NCBI RefSeq assembly: GCF_964019385.1
Contig: NC_088647.1
Span: 11,591,227-11,655,226, forward strand
Length of the DNA stretch: 64,000 nucleotides
DNA from: Sycon ciliatum
Taxonomy: Eukaryota; Porifera; Calcarea; Leucosolenida; Sycettidae
Reading direction: 5' to 3'
The notes under the pieces were generated by a model, which did no database searches, was not told the DNA's origin, and saw only the letters and a program-made list of their open reading frames with translations. This document shows, piece by piece, positions 690 to 64,000 of the stretch. Every line of letters begins with the position of its first letter. The first letter of the stretch is position 1. Position numbers and translations under genes: made by a program.

Positions 690-1696
690 AAAATTATTGA
701 ACGCTTTTTGCCCATGCATCCGGCCTTGGAACTCAAGCCAGTTACGGCTGGGTCAGATTTCGTGGGGCACTGCCTACGACTGCAAGCGGCCTACTAGCAA
801 ACCAAAAATCTAAGCAATTCCAGCAACCACATTGCAGCTGAACCCATTTACCCATAGTTACATTGAAAGGAACAGGCGCGCATACATGGTCAAAGTTTCA
901 CCATTTCTAACCTTTCCGACTGTTCACAGCTGCAACATGGACAGTGACCACCGTAAATTCCTGCAACAGACACACAAAGGGTAGTGCACAACAGAATGGA
1001 CACACATTGTCATAAACGACTTGCCCAGGGCTGCTAAACCCTGAAAATAACCTACCTCCAAGTTTAGGGCTTTTTGCTCGTGCATCCGGACTTGGAACTC
1101 AAGCCAGTTACAGCAGGGTCAAATTTCCTCGGGCAATACCTACAAGTGCAAGCGGCCTACTAGCAAACCAAAAATCTAAGCAATCCCAGCACCCACATTG
1201 CAGCTGGGCCCATTTACCCACAGGTACATTGAAAAGAACACATCCGCACAAATTGTCAAAATTCACTATTTCTCACCTTTCCGACTGTTCACAGCTGCAA
1301 CCTGGACAGTGACCACCTTGATTTCCCGCAATAGGCACACAAAGGGTAGTACACAACAGAAATGATACACATTGTCATAAACGACTTGCCCAGGGCTGCT
1401 GAACCCTGAATGTAACCCATCTCAAAGTTTGGGGCTTTTCGCCCGTGAATCCTGAATTGGAACTCAAGCCAGCTACAGCAGGGTCAAATTATTTCCTGGG
1501 GCACTGCCTACGAGCGCAAGCGGCCTACTAGCAAACCAAAAATCTAAGCAAATCCAGGACCCACATTGAAGCTGGGCCCATTTACCCATAGGTACATTGA
1601 AAGAACACAAGCGCAGATATGGTCCAATATTCACCATTTCTCACCTTTCCGACTATTCACACCTGCAACTTGGACAGTGACCATCGTGAATTCCCA
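690..1696 (-). repeat. Satellite family A, segment 1 (about 365-bp monomers)
   Basis: This is the first block of the family A satellite. Landmarks in each monomer, in plus-strand order, are: CACACAAAGGGTAG, CAGGGCTGCTGAACCCTAA, GGCTTTTTGCCCGTGCATCC, CTTGGAACTCAAGCCAGTTA, AAGCGGCCTACTAGCAAACC, CACATTGAAGCTGGGCCC, ACCATTTCTCACCTTTCCGA and ACCATCGTGAATTCCTACAA. Monomers differ from each other at many positions. The minus strand is called so that the orientation matches family B (27048 onward). The left edge fades at about 690 into unrelated sequence. The right edge is the first TA-flanked MITE. Confidence 0.93.
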
Positions 1697-2672
1697 CTTG
1701 GTCCGCCAAGTTAAAATTGGCGCTTATCTTCTCACTTGGTTTTTCGGTGTTCTGCCTGTGTCACACGGCATGGAACCACCGATTCACCATCCGAACATAA
1801 CCATTGACCATTGCATCGGACAACATGGCAGCACAAACCATCACAGAAGTTGCGATCGGTTCGTTTGAGTCTTTTTGACGGAGCTGCCGCCGACGAACAC
1901 TTCCGTCAGCGCAAGAAAACACTGCAACCTCCGCTCGAGTCCGTAAAATAGGTCCGGATGTTCGCATTTCAGAGCGATGGAGAATACAGTTTCTGTCTAC
2001 TTCCAGCTGTCTGATGGCAAGGATTTATTTTGAACTAATCAAAATAAACACCATGTCCTGAGGCAAAAACTGGTGCAAAGGACTTTCAGAAAACTAGCCG
2101 AAAAGCCTGGTGCACTGCGTTCGGACTTAGGACGTTAGTTAGGTGCACTGTGCAGTACGCACAGGTGCTACATCAAGCGGAAGCTATCACTGCACTGCAT
2201 GTACAAGCTCCAGCGGCTCGCGTGGGTGCTGATCAGCAAGTACGACAAGCGCAAGAGGCGATTAGAAAAAAAGGACACTGATATGGCGTTGCCTTTTTGG
2301 CTCAAACAAAGTCGCATTATTGCGACGAACGGAGATAACACTTACAGCCAACATGCGGGCCGTCTCACTCAGCTTCTGATCGGCAAGGTGACAGGCACGC
2401 ACTGCCTTTGAGCACGATTCGAGACGAGGAGAAGTGGAACAAGCTATGAAACGTGCAGCAGCTGTCCGGATCGAACGTTTTTCAGCTCTCCCTCCAGCGA
2501 CGATAGTGGCGAGGAGGATTTGTAACTTGCTTGAATTTTCGACAGAGTTGCTTACTGACATGTAAATAATCATGTACATAGTGCTTTGTGATCGTGGCTT
2601 GCTTCAAATATTCGTATTTCCTTCCTGAGACAAGTATGAAGATAAGTGCCAATTGTAACTGGGCGGACCAAG
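1697..2672. mobile_element. 976-bp TA-flanked MITE, type 1 (Tc1/mariner- or Stowaway-like)
   Basis: Terminal inverted repeats of 35 bp lie at 1697-1731 and 2638-2672. They begin CTTGGTCCGCC and differ at three positions. The element interrupts a family A monomer between GAATTCC and CAACAGAC. The right side keeps the TA target duplication (2673-2674); at the left it reads CA (1695-1696), presumably a mutated TA. No transposase is recognisable. Only short reading frames exist inside, one of which (plus strand, ending near 2525) finishes in a serine/acidic stretch. The termini resemble those of the 1016-bp MITEs at 12007 and 20310 (CTT..TCCGC, then AAATTG.CGC), so the two types are probably related. 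Superfamily is inferred from the TA duplication and TIR form. Confidence 0.85.
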
Positions 2673-4349
2673 TACAACAGACACACAAAGGGTAGTGCAC
2701 AACAGAAATGACACACATTGTCATAAAGGACCTGCCCAGGGCTGCTGAACCCTAAAAAATGACTATCTCCCAGTTTGGGGCTTCTTGCCTGTGCATCCGG
2801 ACTTGGAACTCAAGCCAGTTACAGCAGGCTCAAATTTCCTGGGGCACTGCCTACGAGTGCAAGCAGCCTACTAGCAAACCGAAAAGTTACGCAATCCAGC
2901 ATCCACATTGAAGTTGGGCCCATTTACCCATAGGTACACGGAAAGAACACAAGCGCAGAAATGGTCCAAAATTCACCATTTCTCACCTTTCCGACTATTC
3001 ACACCTGTAACTTGGACAGTGACCATCGTGAATTCCTACAACAGACACACAAAGGGTAGCGCACAACATAAATGACACACATTGTCATAAACAACCTGCC
3101 CAGGGCTGCTGAACCCTAAAAATTACCTATGTCCCAGTTTGGGGCTTTTTGCCCGTGCATCCGGACTTGGAACTCAAGCCAGTTACAGCAGGATCAAATT
3201 TCCTGGGGCTTTGCGTACGAGTTCAAGCGGCCGACTAGCAAAGCAAAGGTTTAAGCAAATGCAGCACCCACATTGAAGCTGGGCCCATTTATCCACAGGT
3301 ACATTGAAAGAACAGAAGCGCAGAAATGGTTCAAAATTCACCATTTCTCACCTTTCCGACTATTCACACCTGCACCTTGGACAGTCACCATCGTGAATTC
3401 CTACAACAGACACACAAAGGGTAGTGCATAACAGAAATGACACACATTGTCATAAACGACCTGCCCAGGGCTGCTGAACCCTAAAAAATTACCTAGCTCC
3501 CAGTTTGGGGCTTCTTGCCCCTGCATCCGGACTTGGAACTCAAGCCAGTTACAGCAGGGTCAAATTTCCTGGGGAACTGCCTATGAGTGCAAGCGGCCTA
3601 CTAGCAAACCGAAAAGTTACGGAATCCAGCACCCACATTGAAGTTGGACCCATTTACCCATAGGTACATTGAAAGAACACAAGCGCAGAAATGGTCCAAA
3701 ATTCACCATTTCTCACCTTTCCGACTATTCACACCTGTAACTTGGACAGTGACCATCGTGAATTCCTACAACAGACACACAAAGGGTAGTGCACAATAGA
3801 AATGACACACATTGTCAGAAACGACCTACGCAGGGCTGCTGAACCCTAAAAATTATCTATCTACCAGTTTCGAGCTTTTTGCCCGTGCATCTGGACTTGG
3901 AACTCAAGCCAGTTACATCAGGGTCAAATTTCCCGGGGCACTGCCTACGAGTGCAAGCGGCCTACTAGCAAACCAAATGTTTAAGCAAATCCAGCACCCG
4001 CATTGAAGCTGGGCCCATTTTAACAGAGGTACATTGAAAGAACACAAGTGCAGAAATGGTCCAAAATCAACCATTTCTCATCTTTCCGACTATTCACACC
4101 TACAACTTGGACAATGACCATCGTGAATTCCTACAACAGACACACAAAGGGTAGTGTACAACAGAAATGACACACATTGTCATAAACGACCTGCCCATGG
4201 CTGCTGAACCCTAAAAATATCCTATCTCCCAGTTTGGGGCTTTTTGCCCGTGCATCCGCACTTGGAACTCAACCCAATTACAGCAGGATCAAATTTCCTG
4301 GGGCATTGCGTACGAGTTCAAGTGGCCGACTAGCAAAGCAAAAGTGTAA
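2673..4349 (-). repeat. Satellite family A, segment 2
   Basis: GAATTC sites at 3030, 3395, 3760 and 4125 give an exact 365-bp period. Adjacent monomers differ by scattered substitutions, for example CAGGGCT against CATGGCT and TACGAGTG against TACGAGTT. No coding content. Confidence 0.95.
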
Positions 4350-5059
4350 CCTTTTGCGCCCTGGTGCTAAATCCCCTGATTCCTGCCACCGCCCGCCCTG
4401 CCATACTCAATAGCCCCAGTATGCATTTGAAAATTATCTAATTTCACTCACCAATTTCGTAATTATTTCTTTTTGGTCTCATTGGAAAGCTACAGATGTC
4501 CTCTCTCTGAATATCGCCACTAGACACCCAGCAGGAGCAACAGAATTGCCATCAAGCCTGTTGAGAGCTGCCCTATTGCGCCTGAGCGAGATTCTGTACC
4601 CGACTCCACAAATTTTATCGTTTCTCAATTTTTACTCAACGTAGAACGATGATTAAAATTCCTGCAGATCCATGAAGCTCAATCGATTCATTTGGTCTCT
4701 ACTTCGCATGCGCTGTGCAGCGATGAGTCACTAAGAAAGTCCCCGTTTGAGGCACGCCGACGCAGTTTGAAGCGCTCTGCGTGCAAATTTTAGAAACTAT
4801 TTCAAGCGTATCCGCGTTTCGTTCTTCGATACTCAGTGATTCCGCTTCGCCCTATATCAAACGACATACCAATGGAAAGCTTATTCTCTCACCTTTCCAA
4901 TGAGCCATCCTTCGCGACGATTGCATACGTCAACAGTGATGTACGGTATATACACTGTACACTGTACAAGTATGCACTTTTACGTGACGCACATATGCGG
5001 CATCAGGAAATCAGGGTGTGACGTTTTGACGCACATGTGCGGCATCGGTCCACAAAGGG
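4350..5059. mobile_element. 710-bp piggyBac-like non-autonomous element, degenerate
   Basis: It splits a family A monomer at the site that reads TTTAAGC in neighbours. The flanks are GTAA (4346-4349) and CTAA (5060-5063), each one base from TTAA. The left end is CCTTTTGCG; the right end, reverse complemented, is CCCTTTGTG. TTAA duplication with CCYTTTG-type ends is the piggyBac signature. Near the right end a 19-bp motif GACGCACATRTGCGGCATC occurs twice, spaced about 42 bp apart. No transposase is seen. The call is weaker than for 6670-7682 because both target copies and the TIRs are mutated. Confidence 0.62.
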
Positions 5060-5486
5060 CTAAGCAAATCCAGTACCCACATTGAATCTGGGCCCTTTTA
5101 TCCACAGGTACATTGAAAAGAACACAAGGGCAGAAATGGTCTAAATTTCACCATTTCTCACCTTTCCGACTATTCACACCTGCAACTTGGACAGTGACCA
5201 TCGTGAATTCCTACAACAGACACACAAAGGGTAGTGCACAACAGAAATGACACACATTCTCATAAACGACCTGCCCAGGACTGCTGAACCCTAAACATTA
5301 CCTATCTCCCAGTTTGGGGCTTTTTGCCCGTGCATTCGGACTTGGAACTCAAGCCAGTTACAGCAGGGTCAAATTTCCTGGGGCACCGCCTACGAGTGAA
5401 AGCGGCCTACTAGCAAAGCAAAAATTTAAACAAACCCAGCACCCATATTGAAGCTGGGCCCATTTACCCATAGGTACATTGAAATA
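5060..5486 (-). repeat. Satellite family A, segment 3
   Basis: This is a little over one family A monomer, with its EcoRI site near 5208. It runs from the right flank of the piggyBac-like element to the SINE target duplication. It contains all standard landmarks and is non-coding. Confidence 0.93.
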
Positions 5487-5838
5487 CCAGGCAGGCACCA
5501 GGTACCAGGCAGGCACCAGGTACCAGGCAGGCACAGTGGGTTGGTCAAAGACCATGATTGAGATACGAGAGGTACCTGGTTCAAGTCCTGCCGGTGAGCG
5601 GTTTTTCCAGCCGTGCTGCTACCCACAGTCAACTGGGAACTTGTGGCCAGGCACAAGGGGTACATGGATGCAGCTAATGTGGTCGTTTTCGGCACTTGTG
5701 CCAGTGGTTGTGAGACTTACCCAGCCACCCCCACCGTTAGGTGCTGCATCTACCGCTAGGGTTTATCGGGTGTTAGCGGCCGTCGTGAGTTCCCTTCGGG
5801 AACGGATACGATAATTTACTTTTTTAAATTTATGTTTT
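5487..5838 (+). mobile_element. tRNA-derived SINE, 352 bp, with 11-bp target duplication
   Basis: The insertion is bounded by a perfect 11-bp direct repeat ACATTGAAATA at 5476-5486 and 5839-5849, which is family A sequence. A perfect RNA polymerase III B box, GGTTCAAGTCC, lies at 5578-5588. An A-box-like stretch CAGTGGGTTGGTCAAAG lies about 40 bp upstream, as in a tRNA gene. The 5' end carries three copies of an 18-bp unit rich in CAGGCAGGCACC. Near the 3' end is a 6-bp-stem hairpin GTTCCCTTCGGGAAC, followed by an AT-rich tail containing GGATACGATAATTTACTT. The same tail occurs in antisense at 23408 and 24559. The partner LINE supplying reverse transcriptase is not identified. Confidence 0.86.
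5534..5588 (+). promoter_or_regulatory. Internal Pol III promoter (A and B boxes) of the SINE
   Basis: The B box GGTTCAAGTCC (5578-5588) matches the consensus GGTTCRANNCC exactly. The upstream A-box region (about 5534-5550) resembles tRNA positions 8-22 but less strictly. Spacing fits a tRNA-type split promoter. Confidence 0.75.
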
Positions 5839-6126
5839 ACATTGAAATAACACAAGCGCAGAAATGGTCCAAAATTCACCATTTCTCACCTTTCCGACTA
5901 TTCACACCTGCAACTTGGACAGTGACCATCGTGAATTCCTACAACAGACACACAAAAGGTAGGGCACAATAGAAATGACACACACTGTCATAAACGACCT
6001 GCCCAGGGCTGCTGAAACGTAAAAATTACCTATCTCCCAATTTGAGGCTTTTTGCCCTTGCATCCGGACTTGGAACTCAAGCCAGTTACAGCTGGGTGAA
6101 ATTTCCTGCGGCACTGCATACGACTG
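5839..6126 (-). repeat. Satellite family A, segment 4
   Basis: This is a partial monomer between the SINE and the RT element. Its last 14 bases, ACTGCATACGACTG (6113-6126), form the left copy of the RT element's target duplication. Confidence 0.92.
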
Positions 6127-7733: not shown

Positions 7734-9092
7734 TGCTCATACCCACCATCTGTTGCTCATACCCACCATCTGTTGCTCATACCCACCATCTGTTGCTCAT
7801 ACCCACCATCTGTTGCTCATACCCACCATCTGTTGCTCATACCCACCATCTGTTGCTCATACCCACCAGCTGTTGCTCATACCCACCATCTGTTGCTCAT
7901 ACCCACCATCTGTTGCTCATACCCACCATCTGTTGCTCATACCCACCATCTGTTGCTCATACCCACCATCTGTTGCTCATACCCACCATCTGTCACCATC
8001 TGTTGCTCATACCCACCATCTGTTGCTCAGACCCACCATCTGTTGCTCATACCCACCATCTGTTGCTCAGACCCACCATCTGTCACCATCTGTTGCTCAG
8101 ACCCACCATCTGTTGCTCATACCCACCATCTGTTCCTCATACCCACCATCTGTTGCTCATACCCACCATCTGTTGCTCATACCCACCATCTGTTGCTCAT
8201 ACCCACCATCTGTCACCATCTGTTGCTCAGACCCACCATCTGTTACTCATACCCACCATCTGTTGCTCATACCCACCATCTGTTGCTCATACCCACCATC
8301 TGTTGCTCATACCCACCATCTGTTGCTCATACCCACCATCTGTCACCATCTGTTGCTCATACCCACCATCTGTTGCTCATACCCGCCATCTGTTGCTCAT
8401 ACCCACCATCTGTTGCTCATACCCACCATCTGTCACCATCTGTTGCTCAGACCCACCATCTGTTGCTCATACCCACCATCTGTTGCTCATACCCACCATC
8501 TGTCACCATCTGTTGCTCAGACCCACCATCTGTTGCTCATACCCACCATCTGTCACCATCTGTTGCTCATACCCACCATCTGTTGCTCATACCCACCATC
8601 TGTTGCTCATACCCACCATCTGTTGCTCAGACCCACCATCTGTTGCTCATACCCACCATCTGTTGCTCATACCCACCATCTGTTGCTCATACCCACCATC
8701 TGTTGCTCATACCCACCATCTGTTGCTCATACCCACCATCTGTTGCTCATACCCACCATCTGTTGCTCATACCCACCATCTGTTGCGCATACCCACCATC
8801 TGTTGCTCATACCCACCATCTGTTGCTCATACCCACCATCTGTTGCTCATACCCACCATCTGTTGCTCATACCCACCATCTGTTGCTCATACCCACCATC
8901 TGTTGCTCATACCCACCATCTGTTGCTCATACCCACCATCTGTTGCTCATACCCACCATCTGTTGCTCATACCCACCATCTGTTGCTCATACCCACCATC
9001 TGTTGCTCATACCCACCATCTGTTGCTCATACCCACCATCTGTTGCTCATACCCACCATCTGTTGCCCACCATCTGTCCATCTGTTGCTCAG
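7734..9092 (+). repeat. 20-bp minisatellite, about 62 copies, expanded inside the RT pseudogene
   Basis: The unit is ACCCACCATCTGTTGCTCAT. Seven units carry an extra 10 bases (CACCATCTGT), all between about 7990 and 8560. CTCAG variants of the unit cluster in the same stretch, while 8650-9060 is almost perfectly uniform. The 20-mer has no stop codon in any forward frame, so all three frames stay open for more than 1.3 kb and encode the same 20-residue repeat (PTICC, YPPSVAHTHH, LLLI). This is a by-product and not evidence of a protein. The flanking RT coding sequence suggests the unit grew from a short internal segment of the RT. Confidence 0.95.
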
Positions 9093-10472
9093 AGAATCGC
9101 TGATATTATCAACTTGGCACTAGAGACCAGCGACCCACTGGACGTTGGCAGAGGCGCGCTCACCCTCTTGCAGAAACCCGGGAAACCTCTTGGGCCACTT
9201 TCCAGCACAAGGCCAATCGTATTGCTCTCGGTACTCCGGAAATGCCTATCACTGATCGTGCTCAAACGCATTCAGCCACGGGTTGAGGAATATTTATCCC
9301 CATCACAGAGTGCATTCCGACGTCATCGTAGTACCAGCGATGTTATATGGTGCCACAAGTGGTTGGGTGCAATGACTCAACGTTTCCACGACACGATTCA
9401 TATCCTTGGCATCGACATGAGTCGTGTGTTCGACACTGTTTGCCGTGATGTCCTTCTTGAGGTCCTGCACTCATTCCTGGACGCCAGCGACTTACGCATA
9501 GTGCAGATGCTGCTCGCCAATACATGGCTTGAGCCCCGCGTAAGAGGTGCACCGCTAGAGAAGTTCTCTACAAACATCGGAGTCCCACAAGGCGATAGCC
9601 TCTCTCCCGTTCTGTTCATCGTTTACTTAGAGGCTGCCCTCAAGGAGCTGCGACAGGCATTGCCGGCCTGACCATTGTCAGATGGCGGTCTGCCCCTCGA
9701 TATCGGCTACGCAGACGACGTTGACTTCATTAGCCACAGTGAAGCCTACCTTCGGGAAGTGGAAACCATTGCCCCAACCATTCTAGGCAAATGGCATTTG
9801 AATATCAATGCCTCGAAAACCGAGTATGCAGAAGTATCCAGGAAACCCGACCGGAACGACGAAGTGTGGAGATTAGTTACAAAATTGGGCTCTTTGCTAG
9901 GGGATGCTGAAGACGCTGCGAGACGGAGACAACTTGCTGGCTGCACATTCCGGTCCATGTACCTCATCTGGTTCCGGTGAGGCGAAATCAGCGAGCGTCT
10001 CAGGTTGCGACTGTATGAGGCGTACATCATACCTGTCCTCGCGTACAACAGTGGCACCTGGGGTCTTTCCAAAACTGAAATGGTTCGAATGGACAGTTTC
10101 CACCGACGACAGCTGCGCTCAATCATTGACATGCATCATCCCCGGCACATATCGAACGAGACCCTGTACAGGAGGTGCAAAACCCAGCCATTAAGCGTCA
10201 CCATCAACCGCCTGCGGATCGGACTCCTCGGGCACGTTCTGCGCTCACCAGTCGACACCCCGGCACAACTCGCTATGGGTGCATACTTCCGCCGGGCCAG
10301 TGACCCGGCTGCACAACGCTTCCGCGGCCGGCCGCGTACCACCCTTGCAACCACCGTCATCGCCGACCTGACCAGCCATGGTATCCCCACCCGGACGCAG
10401 ACCGATCTTGAGACCTGGCACACCAGAGCCCAAGACAGAAAAGGCTGGCGCACCCTGAAGGCAACTTGCTAG
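9093..10472 (+). pseudogene. Non-LTR reverse transcriptase, palm to C-terminus, two in-frame TGA stops
   Basis: One frame runs from the minisatellite to 10472, interrupted only by TGA at 9669-9671 and 9978-9980. Visible motifs in order: IADIINLALE, LQKPGKP and RPIVLLSVLRK (RT motifs 1-2), SQSAFRRHRSTSD, GIDMSRVFDTV (first catalytic Asp), GVPQGDSLSP, and YADDVDF (catalytic Asp pair, about 9706-9726). Then come LNINASKTEY and KLGSLLGDAEDAARRR, followed by a C-terminal part with LRLYEAYIIPVLAYNSGTW, RLRIGLLGHVLR and FRGRPRTT, typical of RTE/L1-like polyproteins. Both stops fall where CGA (Arg) would fit, consistent with CpG decay. The element cannot make an intact enzyme unless TGA is read through. 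Confidence 0.88.
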
Positions 10473-10729: not shown

Positions 10730-12006
10730 ACTGCGTACGAGTGCAAGCGGCCGACTAGCAAACCAAAAATTTAAGCAAATCCAGCACCCACATTCAAGCT
10801 GGGCCCATTCACCCATAGGTACATTGAAAGAACACAAGTGCAGAAATGGTCCAAAATCAACCATTTCTCACCTTTCCCACTATTCACACCTGCAACTTGG
10901 ACAGTCACCATCGTGAATTCCTACAATAGACACACAAAGGGTAGTGCACAACAGAAATGACACACATTGTCATAAACGACCTGCCCTTGGCTGCTGAACC
11001 CTAATTATTACCTATCTCCCAGTTTGGGGCTTTTTGCCCGTGCATCCGGACTTGGAACTCAAGCCAGTTACAGTAGGGTCAAATTTCCTGGGGCACTGCC
11101 TACGAGTGCAAGCAGCCGACCAGCACACCAAAAAATTAAGCAAATCCAGCAGCCACATTGAACCTGGGGTCATTTACCCATAGGTACAGTGAAAGAACAC
11201 AAGCGCAGAAATGGTCCAAAATTCACCATTTCTCACCTTTCCGACTATTCACACCTGCAACTTGGACAGTGACCATCGTGTATTCCTACAACAGACACAC
11301 AAAGGGTAGTGCACAACAGAAATGACACACATTGTCATAAACGACCTGCCCAGGGCTGCTGAACCCTAAAAATTACCAATCTCCCTGTTAGGGGCTTTTT
11401 GCCCGTGCATCCGGACTTGGAACTCAAGCCAGTTACAGCAGGGTCAAATTTCCTGGGGCACTGCCTACGAGAGCAAGCGGCCTACTAGCAAACCAAACAT
11501 TTAAACAAATCCAGAACCCACATTGAAGCTGGCTCCATTTATAAATAGGTACATTGAAAGAACACAAGCGCAGAAACGGTCCAAAATTCACCATTTCTCA
11601 TCTTTCCCACTATTCGCACCTGAAACTTGGACAGTGACCATCGTGAATTCCTACAACAGACACACAAAGGGTAGTGCACAACAGAAATGACACACATTGT
11701 CATAAACGACCTGCCCTGGGCTGCTGAACCCTAAATATTACCTATCTCCCAGTTTGGGGCATTTTGCCCGTGCATCCAGACTTGGAACTCAAGCCAGATA
11801 CAGCAGGGTCAAATTTCCTGGGGCACTGCCTACGAGTGCAAGCGGCCTACTAGCAAACCAAACATTTAAGCAAATCCAGCACCCACATTGAAGCTGGGCC
11901 CATTTACAGATGGGTACTTTGTGCAGAAATGGTCCAAAATTCACCATTTCTCGCCTTTCCCACTATTCACACCTGCAACTTGGACAATGACCATCGTGAA
12001 TTCCTA
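10730..12006 (-). repeat. Satellite family A, segment 5
   Basis: About 3.5 diverged monomers. The last one carries a diagnostic variant, CATTTACAGATGGGTACTTT, lacking the usual GAAAGAACACAAGC. The same variant recurs just left of the MITE at 20310. Confidence 0.94.
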
Positions 12007-13022: not shown

Positions 13023-13038
13023 TACAACAGACACACAA
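13023..13038 (-). repeat. Short family A remnant between MITE and LINE
   Basis: TACAACAGACACACAA is the continuation of the monomer after the MITE. The last four bases, ACAA, recur at 17045-17048 and form the probable LINE target duplication. Confidence 0.85.
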
Positions 13039-13127
13039 GCTTATCACCATCTCCTCACAATTTGTGACGTAGGAACTGGTTGCAGGTTTTTGAGCTCTGG
13101 TCAAAGTCCCCCTTGTTCTCCCCCAGC

Positions 13128-16829: not shown

Positions 16830-17044
16830 CCATTGTGCAAGCTCAAGCTTGATACAGATCTATTTCATTCCTTGGTGCTGACCGCTTTATTGCGCTTCCC
16901 GAATCCCTTCGCACAAATCATATCCCCAATTCATTTCGCCAGGAACTTAACAATTTCATTCATCTTGGGCACCCTGTAAGAAGACCTTAGGGTCTGTTGG
17001 GAATGCCCAAGTAAAATAATAAAATACAATACAAATACAATACA
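16830..17044 (+). other. LINE 3' region with C-terminal coding remnant and AATACA tail
   Basis: One frame reads LPESLRTNHIPNSFRQELNN and stops at TAG (16987-16989), as in the C-termini of CR1/L2-like ORF2 (..WNSLP.., ..F+..L). It is followed by GACCTTAGGGTC, AATAAAATAC and a short-period AATACA tail ending at the satellite. Confidence 0.6.
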
Positions 17045-24558: not shown

Positions 24559-24602
24559 AGTAAAGTAAAGAAAAAGTAAATTATCATATCCGTTCCCTAA
24601 GA
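24559..24602 (-). mobile_element. 44-bp antisense SINE/LINE tail insertion, copy 2
   Basis: Nearly identical to the insertion at 23408, in the same monomer position and beside the same variant flank (GGTAAATTGAGAAGAATACA). The spacing of 1151 bp equals three monomers plus the 54 bp of insert and target duplication. It therefore arose by duplication of a three-monomer block, not by a second insertion. Confidence 0.78.
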
Positions 24603-51200: not shown

Positions 51201-54200
51201 ATGGTCATTATTCAGAAGCTGAGCTTGAAACGGGAAGAAAGGTGAGAAATTGTCAAATTTTGACCATATTTCACCACCTGTCAATTTTAATGCACCTCTC
51301 TATAACATGACCCAGCTGTAATGTGAGGGGTCGTATTGATTTAATTTTTTGCTTGCTTCTAGACCGCTGGCACCCACATTCAATGACCTGGAAACTTTGG
51401 CACTGCTGTGAATACTTTATTCGCAAAGGAAAGATTCACGGCGACAAGCCTCAAACTTGAATGTAGGTTATTTTCAGCTTTCAGCAGCCCTGGGCGAGTT
51501 GTTTAGAGAAATGTGGCTTTTTTTCTTGGTGCACCTCCCTATGTCCAGCTATAAAATAGGATCAGGATGGTCATTATTCAAGTGCTGAGCTTCAAACAGG
51601 AAGAAAGGTGAGAAATTGTCAAAATTTGACCATATTTGACCACCTGTCAATTTTAATGCATCTCTCAATAACATGACCCAGCTGTAATGTGAGTGGTCGT
51701 ATTATTTTCATTTTTTGCTTGCTTGTAGCTCGCTGGCACCCACATTCAATGATCTAGAAATTTTGGCACTGTTGTGAATACTTTATTCGCAAAGTGAAGA
51801 TTCACGGCGACAAGCCCCAAACTTGGAGATAGGTTCTTTTCAGCTTTCAGCAGCCCGGGGCGAGTTGTTTAGAGAAATGTGGCTTTTTTCTTGGTGCAGC
51901 TCCCTATGGCCAGCTATAAAACAGGATCAGGATGGTCATTTTTTATGTTCTGAGCTTCAAACGGGAAGAAAGGTGAGAAATTGTCAATATTTGACCATAT
52001 TTGACCACCTGTCCATTTTAATGCATCTCTCTATAACATGACCCAGCTGTAATGTGAGTGGTCGTATTGATTTCATTTTTTGTTTGCTTGTAGGCCGCTG
52101 GCACCCACATTCAATGGCTTAGAAATTTTGGCACTGCTGTGAATACTTTAGTCGCAAAGTGAAGATTCACGGCGACAAGCCCCAAACTTGGAGATAGGTT
52201 ATTTTCAGCTTTCAGCAGCCCGGGGCGAGTTGTTTAGAGAAATGTGGCTTTTTTCTTGGTGCAGCTCCCTATGTCCAGCTATAAAACAGGATCAGGATGG
52301 TCAATATTTATGTTCTGAGCTTCAAACGGGAAGAAAGGTGAGAAATTGTCAAATTTTGACCATATTTGACCACCTGTCCATTTTAATGCATCTCTCTATA
52401 ACATGACCCAGCTGTAATGTGAGTGGTCGTATTGATTTCATTTTTTGTTTGCTTGTAGGCCGCTGGCACCCACATTCAATGGCTTAGAAATTTTCGCACT
52501 GCTGTGAATACTTTAGTCGCAAAGTGAAGATTCACGGCGACAAGCCCCAAACTTGGAGATAGGTTATTTTCAGCTTTCAGCAGCCCGGGCGAGTTGTTTA
52601 GAGAAATGTGGCTTTTTTCTTTGTGCACCTCCCTATGTCCAGCTATAAAACAGGATCAGGATGGTCATTATTTATGTTCTGAGCTTCAAACGGGAAGAAA
52701 GGTGAGAAATTGTCAAATTTTTTGACGACCTGTCAATTTTAATGCACGTCTTTATAACATGACCCAGCTGTAATGTCAGTGGTCATATTGATGTCATTTT
52801 TTGTTTGCTTGTAGTTGGCTGATACCCACATTCAATGACCCAGAAACTTTGGAACTGCTGTGAATACTTTAGTTGCAAAGGGAAGATTCACGGCGACAAG
52901 CCGCAAACTTGGACATAGGTTATTTTCAGCTTTCAGCAGCCCTGGCGGAGTTGTTTAGAGAAATGTGGCTTTTTTCTTGCTGTACCTCCCTATATGCAGC
53001 TATTAAACAGGATCATGATGGTCATTATTCAGAAGCTGAACTTGAAACGGGAAGAAAGGTGAGAAATTGTCAAATTTTGACCATATTTCACCACCTGTCA
53101 GTTTTAATGCACCTCTCTATAACATGACCCAGCTGTAATGTGAGGGGTCGTATTGATTTAATTTTTTGCTTGCTTCTAGACCGCTGGCACCCACATTCAA
53201 TGACCTGGAAACTTTGGCACTGCTGTGAATACTTTATTCGCAAAGGAAAGATTCACGGCGACAAGCCGCAAACTTGAATGTAGGTTATTTTCAGCTTTCA
53301 GCAGCCCTGGGCGAGTTGTTTAGAGAAATGTGGCTTTTTTCTTGCTGTACCTCCCTATATGCAGCTATTAAACAGGATCATGATGGTCATTATTCAGAAG
53401 CTGAGCTTGAAACGGGAAGAAAGGTGAGAAATTGTCAAATTTTGACCATATTTCACCACCTGTCAATTTTAATGCACCTCTCTATAACATGACCCAGCTG
53501 TAATGTGAGGGGTCGTATTGATTTAATTTTTTGCTTGCTTCTAGACCGCTGGCACCCACATTCAATGACCTGGAAACTTTGGCACTGCTGTGAATACTTT
53601 ATTCGCAAAGGAAAGATTCACGGCGACAAGCCGCAAACTTGAATGTAGGTTATTTTCAGCTTTCAGCAGCCCTGGGCGAGTTGTTTAGAGAAATGTGGCT
53701 TTTTTTCTTGGTGCACCTCCCTATGTCCAGCTATAAAACAGGATCAGGATGGTCATTATTCAAGTTCTGAGCTTGAACCGGGAAGAAAGGTGAGAGATTG
53801 TCAAAATTTGACCATATTTGACCACCTGTCAATTTTAATGCATCTCTCAATAACATGACCCAGCTAAAATGTGAGTAGTCGTGTTGATTTTATTTTTTGT
53901 TTGCTGTTAGGCCGCTGGCATCCACATTCAATGGCCCAGAAATTTTGGCACTGCTGTGAATACTTTAGTCGCAAAGTGAAGATTCACGGCGACAAGCCGC
54001 AAACTTGGACATAGGTTATTTTCAGCTTTCAGCAGCCCGGGCGAGTTGTTTAGAGAAATGTGGCTTTTTTCTTTGTGCACCTCCCTATGTCCAGCTATAA
54101 AACAGGATCAGGATGGTCATTATTTATGTTCTGAGCTTCAAACGGGAAGAAAGGTGAGAAATTGTCAAATTTTTTGACGACCTGTCAATTTTAATGCACG

Positions 54201-55091
54201 TCTTTATAACATGACCCAGCTGTAATGTCAGTGATCATATTGATGTCATTTTTTGTTTGCTTGTAGTTGGCTGATACCCACATTCAATGACCCAGAAACT
54301 TTGGAACTGCTGTGAATACTTTAGTTGCAAAGGGAAGATTCACGGCGACAAGCCGCAAACTTGGACATAGGTTATTTTCAGCTTTCAGCAGCCCTGGCGG
54401 AGTTGTTTAGAGAAATGTGGCTTTTTTCTTGCTGTACCTCCCTATATGCAGCTATTAAACAGGATCAGGATGGTCATTATTCAGAAGCTGAGCTTGAAAC
54501 GGGAAGAAAGGTGAGAAATTGTCAAATTTTGACCATATTTCACCACCTGTCAATTTTAATGCACCTCTCTATAACATGACCCAGCTGTAATGTGAGGGGT
54601 CGTATTGATTTAATTTTTTGCTTGCTTCTAGACCGCTGGCACCCACATTCAATGACCTGGAAACTTTGGCACTGCTGTGAATACTTTATTCGCAAAGGAA
54701 AGATTCACGGCGACAAGCCGCAAACTTGAATGTAGGTTATTTTCAGCTTTCAGCAGCCCTGGGCGAGTTGTTTAGAGAAATGTGGCTTTTTTTCTTGGTG
54801 CACCTCCCTATGTCCAGCTATAAAATAGGATCAGGATGGTCATTATTCAAGTGCTGAGCTTCAAACAGGAAGAAAGGTGAGAAATTGTCAAATTTTGACC
54901 ATATTTGACCACCTGTCAATTTTATCGCACCTCTCTATAACATGACCCAGCTGTAATGTGAGTGGTCGTATTATTTTCATTTTTTGCTTGCTTGTAGCTC
55001 GCTGGCACCCACATTCAATGATCTAGAAATTTTGGCACTGTTGTGAATACTTTATTCGCAAAGTGAAGATTCACGGCGACAAGCCCCAAAC
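45283..55091 (+). repeat. Family B 9-monomer higher-order repeat (about 3270 bp), three copies
   Basis: Copies are 45283-48552, 48553-51822 and 51823-55091. Five distinguishable monomers recur at the same offsets: 45283/48553/51823, 45648/48918/52188, 46334/49604/52873, 46735/50005/53274 and 47786/51056/54325. Within each copy the marker monomer occurs twice, 1452 bp (4 monomers) apart, so the unit is a 5+4 composite. Differences between copies are single bases, for example AAATTGTGACC at 46534 against AAATTTTGACC at 49804. Confidence 0.93.
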
Positions 55092-58000
55092 TTGGAGATA
55101 GGTTCTTTTCAGCTTTCAGCAGCCCGGGGCGAGTTGTTTAGAGAAATGTGGCTTTTTTCTTGGTGCACCTCCCTATGTCCAGCTATAAAACAGGATCAGG
55201 ATGGTCATTATTCAAGTTCTGAGCTTGAACCGGGAAGAAAGGTGAGAGATTGTCAAAATTTGACCATATTTGACCACCTGTCAATTTTAATGCATCTCTC
55301 AATAACATGACCCAGCTGTAATGTGAGTGGTCGTATTGATTTTATTTTTTGTTTGCTGTTAGGCCGCTGGCATCCACATTCAATGGCGTAGAAATTTTGG
55401 CACTGCTGTGAATACTTTAGTCGCAAAGTGAAGATTCACGGCGACAAGCCCCAAACTTGGAGATAGGTTATTTTCAGCTTTCAGCAGCCCGGGGCGAGTT
55501 GTTTAGAGAAATGTGGCTTTTTTCTTGGTGCAGCTCCCTATGTCCAGCTATAAAACAGGATCAGGATGGTCAATATTTATGTTCTGAGCTTCAAACGGGA
55601 AGAAAGGTGAGAAATTGTCAAATTTTGACCATATTTGACCACCTGTCCATTTTAATGCATCTCTCTATAACATGACCCAGCTGTAATGTGAGTGGTCGTA
55701 TTGATTTCATTTTTTGTTTGCTTGTAGGCCGCTGGCATCCACATTCAATGGCTTAGAAATTTTGGCACTGCTGTGAATACTTTAGTCGCAAAGTGAAGAT
55801 TCACGGCGACAAGCCCCAAACTTGGAGATAGGTTATTTTCAGCTTTCAGCAGCCCTGGGCGAGTTGTTTAGAGAAATGTGGCTTTTTTTCTTGGTCCACC
55901 TCCCTATGTCCAGCTATAAAACAGGATCAGGATGGTCATTAATTATATTCTGAGCTTGAAACGGGAAGAAAGGTGAGAAATTGTAAAATCTTGACCATAT
56001 TTGACCACCTGTCCATTTTAATGCATCTCTCTATAACATGACCCAGCTGTAATGTGAGTGGTCGTATTGATTTCATTTTTTGTTTGCTTGTAGGCCGCTG
56101 TCACCCACATTCAATGACCTAGAAATTTTGGCACTGCTGTGAATACTTTAGTCGCAAATGGAAGGTTCACGGCGACAAGCCCCAAACTTTGAGATAGGTT
56201 ATTTTCAGCTTTCAGCAGCCCTGGGCGAGTTGTTTAGAGAAATGTGGCTTTTTATCCTGGTGCACCTCCCTATGTCCAGCTATAAAACAGGATCAGGATG
56301 GTCATTATTCAAGTTCTGAGCTTGAAACAAGAAGAAAGGTGAGAAATTGTCAAATTTTGACCATATTTGACCACCTGTCCATTTTAATGCATCTCTCTAT
56401 AACATGACCCAGCTGTAATGTGAGTGGTCGTATTGATTTCATTTTTTGTTTGCTTGTAGGCCTTTGTCACCCACATTCGATGGCCTCGAAATTTTGGCAT
56501 TTCTTTGAATACTTTGGTCGCAAAGTGAAGATTCACGGCGACAAGCCCCAAACTTGGAGATAGGTTCTTTTCAGCTTTCAGCAGCCCGGGGCGAGTTGTT
56601 TAGAGAAATGTGGCTTTTTTCTTGGTGCACCTCCCTATGTCCAGCTATAAAACAGGATCAGGATGGTCATTATTCAAGTTCTGAGCTTGAACCGGGAAGA
56701 AAGGTGAGAGATTGTCAAAATTTGACCATATTTGACCACCTGTCAATTTTAATGCATCTCTCAATAACATGACCCAGCTGTAATGTGAGTGGTCGTATTG
56801 ATTTCATTTTTTGTTTGCTTGTAGGCCTTTGTCACCCACATTCGATGGCCTCGAAATTTTGGCATTTCTGTGAATACGTTAGTCGCAAAGTGAAGATTCA
56901 CGGCGACAAGCCCCAAACTTGGAGATAGGTTCTTTTCAGCTTTCAGCAGCCCGGAGCGAGTTGTTTAGAGAAATGTGGCTTTTTTCTTGGTGCACCTCCC
57001 TATGTCCAGCTATAAAACAGGATCAGGATGGTCATTATTCAAGTTCTGAGCTTGAACCGGGAAGAAAGGTGAGAGATTGTCAAAATTTGACCATATTTGA
57101 CCACCTGTCAATTTTAATGCATCTCTCAATAACATGACCCAGCTAAAATGTGAGTGGTCGTATTGATTTTATTTTTTGTTTGCTGTTAGGCCGCTGGCAT
57201 CCACATTCAATGGCCCAGAAATTTTGGCACTGCTGTGAATACTTTAGTCGCAAAGTGAAGATTCACGGCGACAAGCCCCAAACTTGGAGATAGGTTATTT
57301 TCAGCTTTCAGCAGCCCGGGCGAGTTGTTTAGAGAAATGTGGCTTTTTTCTTTGTGCACCTCCCTATGTCCAGCTATAAAACAGGATCAGGATGGTCATT
57401 ATTTATGTTCTGAGCTTCAAACGGGAAGAAAGGTGAGAAATTGTCAAATTTTTTGACGACCTGTCAATTTTAATGCACGTCTTTATAACATGACCCAGCT
57501 GTAATGTCAGTGATCATATTGATGTCATTTTTTGTTTGCTTGTAATGTGCTGATACCCACATTCAATGACCCAGAAACTTTGGAACTGCTGTGAATACTT
57601 TAGTTGCAAAGGGAAGATTCACGGCGACAAGCCGCAAACTTGGACATAGGTTATTTTCAGCTTTCAGCAGCCCTGGCGGAGTTGTTTAGAGAAATGTGGC
57701 TTTTTTCTTGCTGTACCTCCCTATGTGCAGCTATTAAACAGGATCATGATGGTCATTATTCAGAAGCTGAGCTTGAAACGGGAAGAAAGGTGAGAAATTG
57801 TCAAATTTTGACCATATTTCACCACCTGTCAATTTTAATGCACCTCTCTATAACATGACCCAGCTGTAATGTGAGGGGTCGTATTGATTTAATTTTTTGC
57901 TTGCTTCTAGACCGCTGGCACCCACATTCAATGACTTGGAAACTTTGGCACTGCTGTGAATACTTTATTCGCAAAGGAAAGATTCACGGCGACAAGCCGC

Positions 58001-58739
58001 AAACTTGAATGTAGGTTATTTTCAGCTTTCAGCAGCCCTGGGCGAGTTGTTTAGAGAAATGTGGCTTTTTTTCTTGGTGCACCTCCCTAAGTCCAGCTAT
58101 AAAATAGGATCAGGATGGTCATTATTCAAGTGCTGAGCTTCAAACAGGAAGAAAGGTGAGAAATTGTCAAAATTTGACCATATTTGACCACCTGTCAATT
58201 TTAATGCATCTCTCAATAACATGACCCAGCTGTAATGTGAGTGGTCGTATTATTTTCATTTTTTGCTTGCTTGTAGCTCGCTGGCACCCACATTCAATGA
58301 TCTAGAAATTTTGGCACTGTTGTGAATACTTTATTCGCAAAGTGAAGATTCACGGCGACAAGCCCCAAACTTGGAGATAGGTTCTTTTCAGCTTTCAGCA
58401 GCCCGGAGCGAGTTGTTTAGAGAAATGTGGCTTTTTTCTTGGTGCACCTCCCTATGTCCAGCTATAAAACAGGATCAGGATGGTCATTATTCAAGTTCTG
58501 AGCTTGAACCGGGAAGAAAGGTGAGAGATTGTCAAAATTTGACCATATTTGACCACCTGTCAATTTTAATGCATCTCTCAATAACATGACCCAGCTAAAA
58601 TGTGAGTGGTCGTATTGATTTTATTTTTTGTTTGCTGTTAGGCCGCTGGCATCCACATTCAATGGCCCAGAAATTTTGGCACTGCTGTGAATACTTTAGT
58701 CGCAAAGTGAAGATTCACGGCGACAAGCCCCAAACTTGG
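55092..58739 (+). repeat. Family B, mixed higher-order zone (9- then 4-monomer marker spacing)
   Basis: The marker monomer at 54325 is next found at 57604 (3279 bp, 9 monomers) and then near 59056 (1452 bp, 4 monomers). Monomer order in 55092-57600 resembles the 33.6-40 kb block, not the adjacent 9-mer, as though an older unit type had been re-inserted or retained. Confidence 0.82.
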
Positions 58740-61700
58740 AGATAGGTTATTTTCAGCTTTCAGCAGCCCGGGCTAGTTGTTTAGAGAAATGTGGCTTTTT
58801 TCTTTGTGCACCTCCCTATGTCCAGCTATAAAACAGGATCAGGATGGTCATTATTTATGTTCTGAGCTTCAAACGGGAAGAAAGGTGAGAAATTGTCAAA
58901 TTTTTTGACGACCTGTCAATTTTAATGCACGTCTTTATAACATGACCCAGCTGTAATGTCAGTGGTCATATTGATGTCATTTTTTGTTTGCTTGTAGTTA
59001 GCTGATACCCACATTCAATGACCCAGAAACTTTGGAACTGCTGTGAATACTTTAGCTGCAAAGGGAAGATTCACGGCGACAAGCCGCAAACTTGGACATA
59101 GGTTATTTTCAGCTTTCAGCAGCCCTGGCGGAGTTGTTTAGAGAAATGTGGCTTTTTTCTTGCTGTACCTCCCTATGTGCAGCTATTAAACAGGATCATG
59201 ATGGTCATTATTCAGAAGCTGAGCTTGAAACGGGAAGAAAGGTGAGAAATTGTCAAATTTTGACCATATTTCACCACCTGTCAATTTTAATGCACCTCTC
59301 TATAACATGACCCAGCTGTAATGTGAGGGGTCGTATTGATTTAATTTTTTGCTTGCTTCTAGACCGCTGGCACCCACATTCAATGACTTGGAAACTTTGG
59401 CACTGCTGTGAATACTTTATTCGCAAAGGAAAGATTCACGGCGACAAGCCGCAAACTTGAATGTAGGTTATTTTCAGCTTTCAGCAGCCCTGGGCGAGTT
59501 GTTTAGAGAAATGTGGCTTTTTTTCTTGGTGCACCTCCCTATGTCCAGCTATAAAATAGGATCAGGATGGTCATTATTCAAGTGCTGAGCTTCAAACAGG
59601 AAGAAAGGTGAGAAATTGTCAAAATTTGACCATATTTGACCACCTGTCAATTTTAATGCATCTCTCAATAACATGACCCAGCTGTAATGTGAGTGGTCGT
59701 ATTATTTTCATTTTTTGCTTGCTTGTAGCTCGCTGGCACCCACATTCAATGATCTAGAAATTTTGGCACTGTTGTGAATACTTTATTCGCAAAGTGAAGA
59801 TTCACGGCGACAAGCCCCAAACTTGGAGATAGGTTCTTTTCAGCTTTCAGCAGCCCGGGGCGAGTTGTTTAGAGAAATGTGGCTTTTTTCTTGGTGCACC
59901 TCCCTATGTCCAGCTATAAAACAGGATCAGGATGGTCATTATTCAAGTTCTTAGCTTGAACCGGGAAGAAAGGTGAGAGATTGTCAAAATTTGACCATAT
60001 TTGACCACCTGTCAATTTTAATGCATCTCTCAATAACATGACCCAGCTGTAATGTGAGTGGTCGTATTGATTTTATTTTTTGTTTGCTGTTAGGCCGCTG
60101 GCATCCACATTCAATGGTCTAGAAATTTTGGCACTGCTGTGAATACTTTAGTCGCAAAGTGAAGATTCACGGCGACAAGCCCCAAACTTGGAGATAGGTT
60201 ATTTTCAGCTTTCAGCAGCCCGGGGCGAGTTGTTTAGAGAAATGTGGCTTTTTTCTTGGTGCAGCTCCCTATGGCCAGCTATAAAACAGGATCAGGATGG
60301 TCAATATTTATGTTCTGAGCTTCAAACGGGAAGAAAGGTGAGAAATTTTCAATATTTGACCATATTTGACCACCTGTCCATTTTAATGCATCTCTCTATA
60401 ACATGACCCAGCTGTAATGTGAGTGGTCGTATTGATTTCATTTTTTGTTTGCTTGTAGGCCGCTGGCACCCACATTCAATGGCTTAGAAATTTTGGCACT
60501 GCTGTGAATACTTTAGTCGCAAAGTGAAGATTCACGGCGACAAGCCCCAAACTTGGAGATAGGTTATTTTCAGCTTTCAGCAGCCCTGGGCGAGTTGTTT
60601 AGAGAAATGTGGCTTTTTTTCTTGGTCCACCTCCCTATGTCCAGCTATAAAACAGGATCAGGATGGTCATTAATTATATTCTGAGCTTGAAACGGGAAGA
60701 AAGGTGAGAAATTGTAAAATCTTGACCATATTTGACCACCTGTCCATTTTAATGCATCTCTCTATAACATGACCCAGCTGTAATGTGAGTGGTCGTATTG
60801 ATTTCATTTTTTGTTTGCTTGTAGGCCGCTGTCACCCACATTCAATGACCTAGAAATTTTGGCACTGCTGTGAATACTTTAGTCGCAAATGGAAGGTTCA
60901 CGGCGACAAGCCCCAAACTTTGAGATAGGTTATTTTCAGCTTTCAGCAGCCCTGGGCGAGTTGTTTAGAGAAATGTGGCTTTTTATCCTGGTGCACCTCC
61001 CTATGTCCAGCTATAAAACAGGATCAGGATGGTCATTATTCAAGTTCTGAGCTTGAAACAAGAAGAAAGGTGAGAAATTGTCAAATTTTGACCATATTTG
61101 ACCACCTGTCCATTTTAATGCATCTCTCTATAACATGACCCAGCTGTAATGTGAGTGGTCGTATTGATTTCATTTTTTGTTTGCTTGTAGGCCTTTGTCA
61201 CCCACATTCGATGGCCTCGAAATTTTGGCATTTCTGTGAATACTTTAGTCGCAAAGTGAAGATTCACGGCGACAAGCCCCAAACTTGGAGATAGGTTATT
61301 TTCAGCTTTCAGCAGCCCGGGCTAGTTGTTTAGAGAAATGTGGCTTTTTTCTTTGTGCACCTCCCTATGTCCAGCTATAAAACAGGATCAGGATGGTCAT
61401 TATTTATGTTCTGAGCTTCAAACGGGAAGAAAGGTGAGAAATTGTCAAATTTTTTGACGACCTGTCAATTTTAATGCACGTCTTTATAACATGACCCAGC
61501 TGTAATGTCAGTGGTCATATTGATGTCATTTTTTGTTTGCTTGTAGTTAGCTGATACCCACATTCAATGACCCAGAAACTTTGGAACTGCTGTGAATACT
61601 TTAGCTGCAAAGGGAAGATTCACGGCGACAAGCCGCAAACTTGGACATAGGTTATTTTCAGCTTTCAGCAGCCCTGGCGGAGTTGTTTAGAGAAATGTGG

Positions 61701-63837
61701 CTTTTTTCTTGCTGTACCTCCCTATGTGCAGCTATTAAACAGGATCATGATGGTCATTATTCAGAAGCTGAGCTTGAAACGGGAAGAAAGGTGAGAAATT
61801 GTCAAATTTTGACCATATTTCACCACCTGTCAATTTTAATGCACCTCTCTATAACATGACCCAGCTGTAATGTGAGGGGTCGTATTGATTTAATTTTTTG
61901 CTTGCTTCTAGACCGCTGGCACCCACATTCAATGACTTGGAAACTTTGGCACTGCTGTGAATACTTTATTCGCAAAGGAAAGATTCACGGCGACAAGCCG
62001 CAAACTTGAATGTAGGTTATTTTCAGCTTTCAGCAGCCCTGGGCGAGTTGTTTAGAGAAATGTGGCTTTTTTTCTTGGTGCACCTCCCTATGTCCAGCTA
62101 TAAAATAGGATCAGGATGGTCATTATTCAAGTGCTGAGCTTCAAACAGGAAGAAAGGTGAGAAATTGTCAAAATTTGACCATATTTGACCACCTGTCAAT
62201 TTTAATGCATCTCTCAATAACATGACCCAGCTGTAATGTGAGTGGTCGTATTATTTTCATTTTTTGCTTGCTTGTAGCTCGCTGGCACCCACATTCAATG
62301 ATCTAGAAATTTTGGCACTGTTGTGAATACTTTATTCGCAAAGTGAAGATTCACGGCGACAAGCCCCAAACTTGGAGATAGGTTCTTTTCAGCTTTCAGC
62401 AGCCCGGGGCGAGTTGTTTAGAGAAATGTGGCTTTTTTCTTGGTGCACCTCCCTATGTCCAGCTATAAAACAGGATCAGGATGGTCATTATTCAAGTTCT
62501 TAGCTTGAACCGGGAAGAAAGGTGAGAGATTGTCAAAATTTGACCATATTTGACCACCTGTCAATTTTAATGCATCTCTCAATAACATGACCCAGCTGTA
62601 ATGTGAGTGGTCGTATTGATTTTATTTTTTGTTTGCTGTTAGGCCGCTGGCATCCACATTCAATGGTCTAGAAATTTTGGCACTGCTGTGAATACTTTAG
62701 TCGCAAAGTGAAGATTCACGGCGACAAGCCCCAAACTTGGAGATAGGTTATTTTCAGCTTTCAGCAGCCCGGGGCGAGTTGTTTAGAGAAATGTGGCTTT
62801 TTTCTTGGTGCAGCTCCCTATGGCCAGCTATAAAACAGGATCAGGATGGTCAATATTTATGTTCTGAGCTTCAAACGGGAAGAAAGGTGAGAAATTTTCA
62901 ATATTTGACCATATTTGACCACCTGTCCATTTTAATGCATCTCTCTATAACATGACCCAGCTGTAATGTGAGTGGTCGTATTGATTTCATTTTTTGTTTG
63001 CTTGTAGGCCGCTGGCACCCACATTCAATGGCTTAGAAATTTTGGCACTGCTGTGAATACTTTAGTCGCAAAGTGAAGATTCACGGCGACAAGCCCCAAA
63101 CTTGGAGATAGGTTATTTTCAGCTTTCAGCAGCCCTGGGCGAGTTGTTTAGAGAAATGTGGCTTTTTTTCTTGGTCCACCTCCCTATGTCCAGCTATAAA
63201 ACAGGATCAGGATGGTCATTAATTATATTCTGAGCTTGAAACGGGAAGAAAGGTGAGAAATTGTAAAATCTTGACCATATTTGACCACCTGTCCATTTTA
63301 ATGCATCTCTCTATAACATGACCCAGCTGTAATGTGAGTGGTCGTATTGATTTCATTTTTTGTTTGCTTGTAGGCCGCTGTCACCCACATTCAATGACCT
63401 AGAAATTTTGGCACTGCTGTGAATACTTTAGTCGCAAATGGAAGGTTCACGGCGACAAGCCCCAAACTTTGAGATAGGTTATTTTCAGCTTTCAGCAGCC
63501 CTGGGCGAGTTGTTTAGAGAAATGTGGCTTTTTATCCTGGTGCACCTCCCTATGTCCAGCTATAAAACAGGATCAGGATGGTCATTATTCAAGTTCTGAG
63601 CTTGAAACAAGAAGAAAGGTGAGAAATTGTCAAATTTTGACCATATTTGACCACCTGTCCATTTTAATGCATCTCTCTATAACATGACCCAGCTGTAATG
63701 TGAGTGGTCGTATTGATTTCATTTTTTGTTTGCTTGTAGGCCTTTGTCACCCACATTCGATGGCCTCGAAATTTTGGCATTTCTGTGAATACTTTAGTCG
63801 CAAAGTGAAGATTCACGGCGACAAGCCCCAAACTTGG
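58740..63837 (+). repeat. Family B 7-monomer higher-order repeat (2549 bp), two full copies
   Basis: Diagnostic variants repeat at exactly 2549 bp: CCCGGGCTAGTTG (58767 and 61316), CTGCAAAGGG (59056 and 61605), and ATGGCCAGC with AATTTTCAATATTTG (about 60270 and 62820). Both copies are almost identical, indicating a recent duplication. Confidence 0.9.
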
Positions 63838-64000
63838 AGATAGGTTCTTTTCAGCTTTCAGCAGCCCGGGGCGAGTTGTTTAGAGAAATGTGGCTTTTTT
63901 CTTGGTGCACCTCCCTATGTCCAGCTATAAAACAGGATCAGGATGGTCATTATTCAAGTTCTGAGCTTGAACCGGGAAGAAAGGTGAGAGATTGTCAAAA
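63838..64000 (+). repeat. Family B, array continues past the window end
   Basis: A further monomer of the AACCGGGAAG type begins. The expected CCCGGGCTAGTTG of a third 7-mer copy is absent (GGGGCGAGTTG instead), so the preceding 7-mer block ends here. Confidence 0.85.

Follow-up and report, generated by a model that had tools for sequence, protein, structure and literature searches.

Two diverged branches of one 365-bp satellite on either side of a scaffold gap in the calcareous sponge Sycon ciliatum

Overview

The window analysed here is a stretch of 64,000 nucleotides of the Sycon ciliatum genome (contig C5, NC_088647.1, positions 11591227-11655226; assembly of 538,412,230 bases in 313 contigs), in which two arrays of tandem repeats, termed satellite A on the left and satellite B on the right, lie on either side of a scaffold gap. 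A and B are two branches of one 365-bp satellite. The joint explanation that best accommodates the observations, and that is held here with considerable confidence, is that of a split satellite in which a young B lies beside an older A, the opposite orientation of the two being a property of the 200-N join between them.

The comparison covered 314 kb of continuous sequence on three chromosome-scale contigs, namely C3 (46.7 Mb; 50 kb examined), C5 (39.0 Mb; 194 kb, the window included), and C13 (29.0 Mb; 70 kb), together with ten two-kb pieces sampled on C13, C3, and C5 and three one-kb pieces to the left of a decamer dyad on C3. Since only 6 of 776 candidates were scored in a genome search for B, the counts of loci are lower bounds and other B loci may exist. 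The tree is a single FastTree run with a midpoint root, built from 123 full monomers (28 of A and 95 of B).

Common descent of satellites A and B

The initial annotation had proposed a common origin of the two arrays and had suggested aligning the reverse-complemented A consensus to the B consensus against shuffled sequence; this comparison was run and bears the proposal out. Each consensus measures 365 bp, and in the same sense the two reach a local alignment score of 175 (antisense, 23), as against 19.8 +/- 2.4 and a maximum of 36 in 1000 dinucleotide shuffles. Globally, 268 of 383 alignment columns are identical (70%, or 77% without gap columns), whereas 200 shuffles average 50% and do not exceed 54%; the gap-free columns comprise 245 that are the same and 118 that differ, which corresponds to a Jukes-Cantor distance of 0.43. 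All five sequence blocks that had been said to occur in the same order are visible in the alignment: AAGCCCCAAACT-GGAGATA, TTCAGCAGCCCTGGGC, AAAGGTGAGAAAT, CCCAGCT, and TTTGCT-GTAGGCCGCT. It is conceivable in principle that the likeness arose by convergence or from a shared embedded transposon fragment rather than by descent of the whole monomer, and the matching positions are indeed more clustered than in permutations (window variance p ~0.01; the best window taken by itself is unremarkable, p 0.19). However, the period of 365 bp is the same in both families, the match is colinear over the entire unit, and the global identity of 70% exceeds anything reached in the 200 shuffles, all of which renders such an origin extremely improbable.

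Profiles built from the monomers yielded 44 matches to A, including its 28 full monomers, at 707-26655 on the minus strand (searched on that strand), and 103 matches to B, including its 95 full monomers, at 27048-64000 on the plus strand. Similarly, a both-strand BLAST search with an A monomer gave 41 plus matches to the left of the gap and 100 minus matches to its right, and the same search with a B monomer gave 40 minus matches on the left and 103 plus matches on the right. The two arrays therefore lie where the initial annotation had placed them; the continuity that it had implied for A did not hold up, for satellite matches cover just 13,205 bp of A's 26 kb, the remainder being transposable elements, minisatellites, and other sequence. 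Both families form head-to-tail arrays with a fixed monomer, as expected of satellite DNA, and B occurs at several loci (on C3, C5, and C13), while A was seen on C5 alone among the stretches examined.

The tree separates the 28 A monomers from the 95 B monomers with no intermediates, and the A clade has a support of 1.0. Mean identities were taken from a joint alignment of all 123 full monomers: A reaches 0.895 internally, the core of B 0.922, and the diverged edge of B 0.825; between groups the values are 0.846 for edge and core, 0.624 for A and core, and 0.610 for A and edge. The divergence between A and B was thus rightly said to be far above that within B (0.624 versus 0.922 in the core), and the edge monomers are no nearer to A than the core monomers are. 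A third branch, X, was found in the two-kb sample at 22670001 on C13, where three full monomers are 85-86% alike to B and 67% to A; of the 113 positions that distinguish A from B, X carries the B base at 88, the A base at 18, and neither at 7. X lies on the minus strand, like B at 22.690 and from 22.710 Mb on; a gap within 22.672-22.690 Mb, between the stretches examined, is possible.

Two further properties of the monomer were considered. When CpG is set aside, the positions that A and B have in common show reduced variation within A (p 0.02) and scarcely any reduction within B (p 0.09), which was represented by 7 monomers of the edge and 9 non-redundant types of the core; the positional variabilities of A and B show no correlation (p 0.18). 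The signal of constraint is weak, and no binding site is claimed. An origin of the 365-bp unit as an old dimer of ~182 bp was rejected: both families show a weak self-match at a lag of 178/187, half-versus-half scores are not above those of shuffles (the real score was reached by 31 of 200 shuffles for A and 150 of 200 for B), and the local off-diagonal scores were reached by 143 and 165 of 200 shuffles.

Structure of satellite B

The core of B is organized into higher-order repeats. With monomers clustered into types at 95.5%, the units read JKOILMN (7 monomers, 2.55 kb), IJKMN and IJKOP (5 monomers), and JKKIJKOLL (9 monomers); from 32174 on, the nearest copy of a B monomer is 98.6-100% alike and adjacent monomers are ~91% alike, that is, the 5-, 7-, and 9-monomer units are far more alike than single monomers. 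The left 4.4 kb of B (27048-31442) is diverged toward the gap, and the six full monomers in 27048-30200 have identities of 0.81-0.86 to the core, so that on the left the array ends in a diverged edge (edge-core 0.846 versus core-core 0.922). The right side of B on C5 is interrupted, yet not more diverged (0.939 within): the array continues on the plus strand to C5 11673141 with no interruption of 400 bp or more, and then in interrupted blocks to 11744845, approximately the end of the sequence examined. Two short inverted fragments of B, of 310 and 334 bp, were observed in plus-strand B arrays at C5 11700026-11700335 and 11744090-11744423. The element that separates edge from core has a CAGTAAAACC end and a TA duplication, its empty site is present on C13, and it is presumably pogo/Tigger-like.

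The edge is shared between chromosomes. The C5 edge and the sequence next to either C13 gap are 99.0% identical (2,663 aligned bases in each comparison); between the two copies on C13 the identity is 99.1% over 2,793 bases. At the first C13 gap, the edge extends 481 bp past the C5 contig end, and its final 191 bp, which abuts the Ns, is a (GA)n tract; at the second, the contig ends within the satellite, short of any such tract. On C3, where the 50 kb examined contains no N, a (GA)n tract of 694 bp (15888004-15888697) is followed by B from 15888699, and to the left of B lie (GA)n, (CTCTGC)n, and a decamer minisatellite, not A. Beside the start of B on C3, a gap-free inverted pair of decamer arms (15870025-15887812; ~4.9 kb aligned, 79-80%) surrounds an array of the CATTCATGTA decamer; samples at 15860001 and 15864001 are decamer still, and that at 15850001 is, by eye, another tandem repeat. 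The possibility that C3 holds a gap-free macro-dyad was rejected: it predicted minus-strand B to the left of the decamer dyad, and A or B was present in none of the three one-kb samples there. Four of the ten two-kb samples contained satellite, in each case B or a B-like branch, and A proper was in none of them (C13, C3, and C5). Beyond the plus-strand B array of C13, which was examined to 22780000, hexamers of the CCCTAA type occur nine times in 2 kb (22800001-22802000).

Satellite A and its insertions

No higher-order pattern was seen among the 28 full monomers of A, whose best matches to one another range from 0.87 to 0.97, and the two outermost full monomers (707-1697) are its most diverged, at 0.848 and 0.861 to other A. 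Three elements with terminal inverted repeats (TIRs), designated i1, i2, and i3, are inserted at one identical site of the monomer. Element i1 has 43-bp TIRs that are 88% alike and the insertion site CC-TA-CAACAG; i2 has perfect 36-bp TIRs and a TA site identical to that of i1; and i3 is 98% alike to i2. The left flanks of i2 and i3 agree at 240 of 245 positions and the next monomers outward are only 90% alike, which suggests that a short piece was probably copied along with the element. These ~1-kb elements are of two kinds, whose ends, CTTGGTCCGCC and CTTCCTCCGCG, resemble each other only on visual inspection, and BLAST of i1 against i2 gave no match. The consensus of A contains 15 TAs, and all TIR insertions fall at one of them; a target preference of the elements for this TA is possible.

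A non-LTR (long terminal repeat) retrotransposon at 13068-16829 has an open ORF1 (open reading frame; 330 codons) and ORF2 (922 codons, with endonuclease and RVT_1 domains), and its make-up is one that we take to be CR1/L2-like. ORF2 has a relative at 97% over 92% on a 343-kb contig, and the insertion into A is probably recent. At the gap, in 26670-26847 (178 bp), an A monomer breaks off into a short hairpin, recognized by eye, and two 54-bp repeats, which may be the beginning of an element that the gap truncates. The features of the window are collected in Table 1; a scan with Rfam gave no match at gathering scores, a scan for tRNAs found none in the window, and the block pattern had no match in collections of virus and prokaryote contigs, as expected.

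Table 1. Features of the 64,000-nucleotide window (positions are those of the window; + and - denote strand).
Feature	Position	Strand	Evidence or remark
48-bp minisatellite array, right end; flanks A on the left and extends ~11 kb outside the window	1..214	+	TRF
ATCACACA microsatellite and 30-bp repeat, left edge of A	386..653	+	
Satellite A, outermost monomers	707..1697	-	profile matches, monomer alignment
TIR element i1	1698..2672	+	
Satellite A	2673..4351	-	profile matches
Satellite A fragments, interruption 5492-5837	5053..6126	-	profile matches
20-bp minisatellite within A region	7734..9066	+	
Reverse transcriptase fragment	9099..9671	+	Pfam RVT_1, E 1.5e-18
Satellite A	10730..12007	-	profile matches
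TIR element i2, ends approximate	12007..13024	+	
Stretch with non-LTR retrotransposon inserted in A	13025..17044	+	ORF1 13068-14060, ORF2 14061-16829
Satellite A	17045..20310	-	profile matches
TIR element i3, ends approximate	20310..21327	+	
Satellite A, last block, two short interruptions	21326..26669	-	
Non-satellite end of left contig, cut by gap	26670..26847	.	
Scaffold gap, exactly 200 N; strand flip located here	26848..27047	.	
Diverged edge of satellite B	27048..30200	+	
TIR-like element	30201..31181	+	
Satellite B core with higher-order repeats	31182..64000	+	

The scaffold gap and the orientation of the arrays

The change of strand coincides with the only run of N in the window. In the 314 kb, three such runs occur, at C5 11618074, C13 22733709, and C13 22754314, each of 200 N. 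Among 581 satellite matches in the stretches of C3, C5, and C13, strand is kept in 571 of the 575 gap-free neighbour pairs, and the four flips bound the two short inverted fragments described above; across the 200-N gaps, strand flips in two of three pairs. A macro-dyad, in the sense of a strand change in continuous sequence, is accordingly represented in the gap-free pairs by nothing larger than these two fragments of ~0.3 kb. The initial annotation had described two arrays in opposite orientation, of which the strands themselves stand (A minus, B plus) and the inversion is a candidate only, as it depends on the 200-N join; its caution regarding the orientation of the scaffold was well placed, for the flip falls exactly on the gap and no lasting flip occurs in the gap-free sequence examined on the three contigs. 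The further suggestion of a large palindrome finds no support, since A and the B core are ~62% alike (0.624), too little for the arms to pair, and since the A contig ends in 178 bp of non-satellite sequence. With the sense of B taken as forward, the A and B arrays point away from each other.

Fixed gaps of this kind are recorded for an assembly made with YaHS, in which 54 gaps were each marked by 200 Ns (reported in a passage of PMC12134992), and it may be guessed that the present assembly was made likewise. Coverage by HiFi reads is described as being lost across GA-rich sequence (in part of PMC9186530), and the gaps of human assemblies are described as enriched in GA/AT dinucleotides (in part of PMC10234299). 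The contigs on C5 probably break at the join because the edge of B would end there in a (GA)n tract, which is surmised from C13. In the same account of human haplotypes, 6-7 Mbp of each are misorientated, and 81% of misorientations are true inversion polymorphisms (PMC10234299). A contig of 20.4 kb on C13 (22733909-22754313) lies between two 200-N gaps, and its edge is 99.1% identical to that of its neighbour; it may be a misplaced second haplotype.

Proposed history and alternatives

In the history proposed here, an ancient split of one 365-bp satellite would have produced three or more branches, among them A, B, and X, each homogenised separately through unequal exchange and gene conversion. 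B would be the recently amplified branch, with its higher-order-repeat core and diverged edge, and A an older, retired layer that appears to be no longer homogenised and that collects transposons and minisatellites; the opposite orientation would then be a property of a 200-N scaffold join. Several points weigh against this history. Divergence among the monomers of A (0.895) is little greater than that within the B core (0.922); interruptions occur in B as well, to the right of 11673200, so that interruption alone does not mark A as older; and the view of A as an older layer draws on one locus, C5. The (GA)n tract of C5 is taken from C13 and was not seen, and tracts of such size were assembled on C3 and at C5 11742549, so (GA)n does not always break this assembly. 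Moreover, no further gap interrupts the sequence over at least 66.8 kb leftward and 127 kb rightward of the join, so that both contigs may be anchored in chromosome arms; a true central gap would be expected to leave satellite ends facing each other, and the orientation may be real. Finally, two of the three gaps share the divergent, outward layout, the second C13 gap among them.

The last two of these points favour a real strand switch, either as an old inversion of A relative to B or through the seeding of B in the opposite sense beside A, which is compatible with common descent. Changes of strand are known to occur in satellite regions. Human arrays provide a parallel, with inversions, among other disorder, described as higher in divergent than in homogeneous arrays and one inversion noted in the live array of centromere 1 (passages of PMC9549924). 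However, the latter is presented there as the single such event in live human centromeres; no lasting flip occurs in the 575 gap-free pairs; the C13 flip adjoins the 20.4-kb contig, which is hard to orient; and the C3 array is one-directional in 50 kb and in the samples, with no minus-strand B on its left there. The odds of a real switch are regarded as roughly even, and those of the relative orientation being right as drawn, including cases with more sequence in the gap, as slightly better than that.

In a pure scaffolding error, A and B would not be neighbours at all, and satellite-ended contigs from different places would have been joined. Copies of the B edge that are 99% alike adjoin three gaps on two contigs, so the evidence for placement may be ambiguous, and no A lies beside B on C3 in the sequence examined. 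Nevertheless, both contigs end in branches of one satellite (or 178 bp short of it), as one continuous region would, and on C13 branch X shares both scaffold and sense with B; an error of this kind is considered unlikely. The split satellite, with its young B beside an older A, remains preferred.

Centromeric candidacy and comparison with known satellites

B occupies at least one interior locus on each of C3, C5, and C13. The initial annotation had suggested the boundary of a centromere or pericentromere, and a centromeric or pericentromeric role of the satellite is plausible from the sequence, because of its higher-order repeats, its diverged edge, its interior position, and the one locus recorded on each of three chromosome-scale contigs. 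The CENP-B box is a 17-bp motif with nine essential bases, of which the best site matches seven in B and six in A; at least seven are matched in 135 of 300 shuffled versions of B, so this lies at chance level. Alpha satellite has a monomer of ~171 bp. The layering of A and B matches the expanding-centromere model of human alpha satellite, for which a homogeneous core of higher-order repeats, a diverged edge, older transposon-bearing relatives beside it, and occasional inversions are likewise described (passages of PMC9549924). In contrast to alpha satellite, the sponge monomer measures 365 bp, no CENP-B box rises above chance, the other branch stands in the opposite sense across a gap, and a kinetochore role is a candidate only.

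A second likeness is found in the macro-dyads of the beetle Tribolium madens, in which two related satellites from one progenitor, TmSat1 and TmSat2, form arrays that change orientation, with diverged yet highly conserved sequence at the switch points; the switches are numerous and were confirmed on raw HiFi reads (parts of PMC13081366). Unlike in T. madens, both lasting flips here lie at N gaps, and the gap-free arrays examined run one way; as for switch-point sequence, an edge block that C5 and C13 share at 99% adjoins three gaps, two of which flip. The TLC and minor satellites of the mouse are also neighbours, 60-70% alike and possibly of different age, but with monomers of 145-146 and 120 bp and in telocentric centromeres (parts of PMC10880262 and PMC8122249). 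Inverted arrays are mentioned for the centromeres of fission yeast in PMC3292466.

A more specific view takes the strand switches of C5 and C13 as genuine and as bearing a common cassette of (GA)n and diverged B edge, which would mark the centre of divergent arms; the cassette sequence is 99% alike between chromosomes and the array interiors ~90% alike. This is judged quite unlikely. If true, it would be a second, independent case of a Tribolium-like macro-dyad, with one arm even belonging to another branch (A on C5), and the one-way array of C3 would be an exception or an incomplete form.

The window offers a clear and small example of satellite branches, each with its own history of homogenisation, in which a young array and its diverged edge lie beside what is probably an older relative. 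It also illustrates how far apparent inversions can be trusted, since the lasting strand changes in the stretches examined coincide with fixed 200-N gaps. Should the switch prove true, the edge block shared at 99% would allow the idea of a conserved strand-switch cassette to be tested outside beetles.

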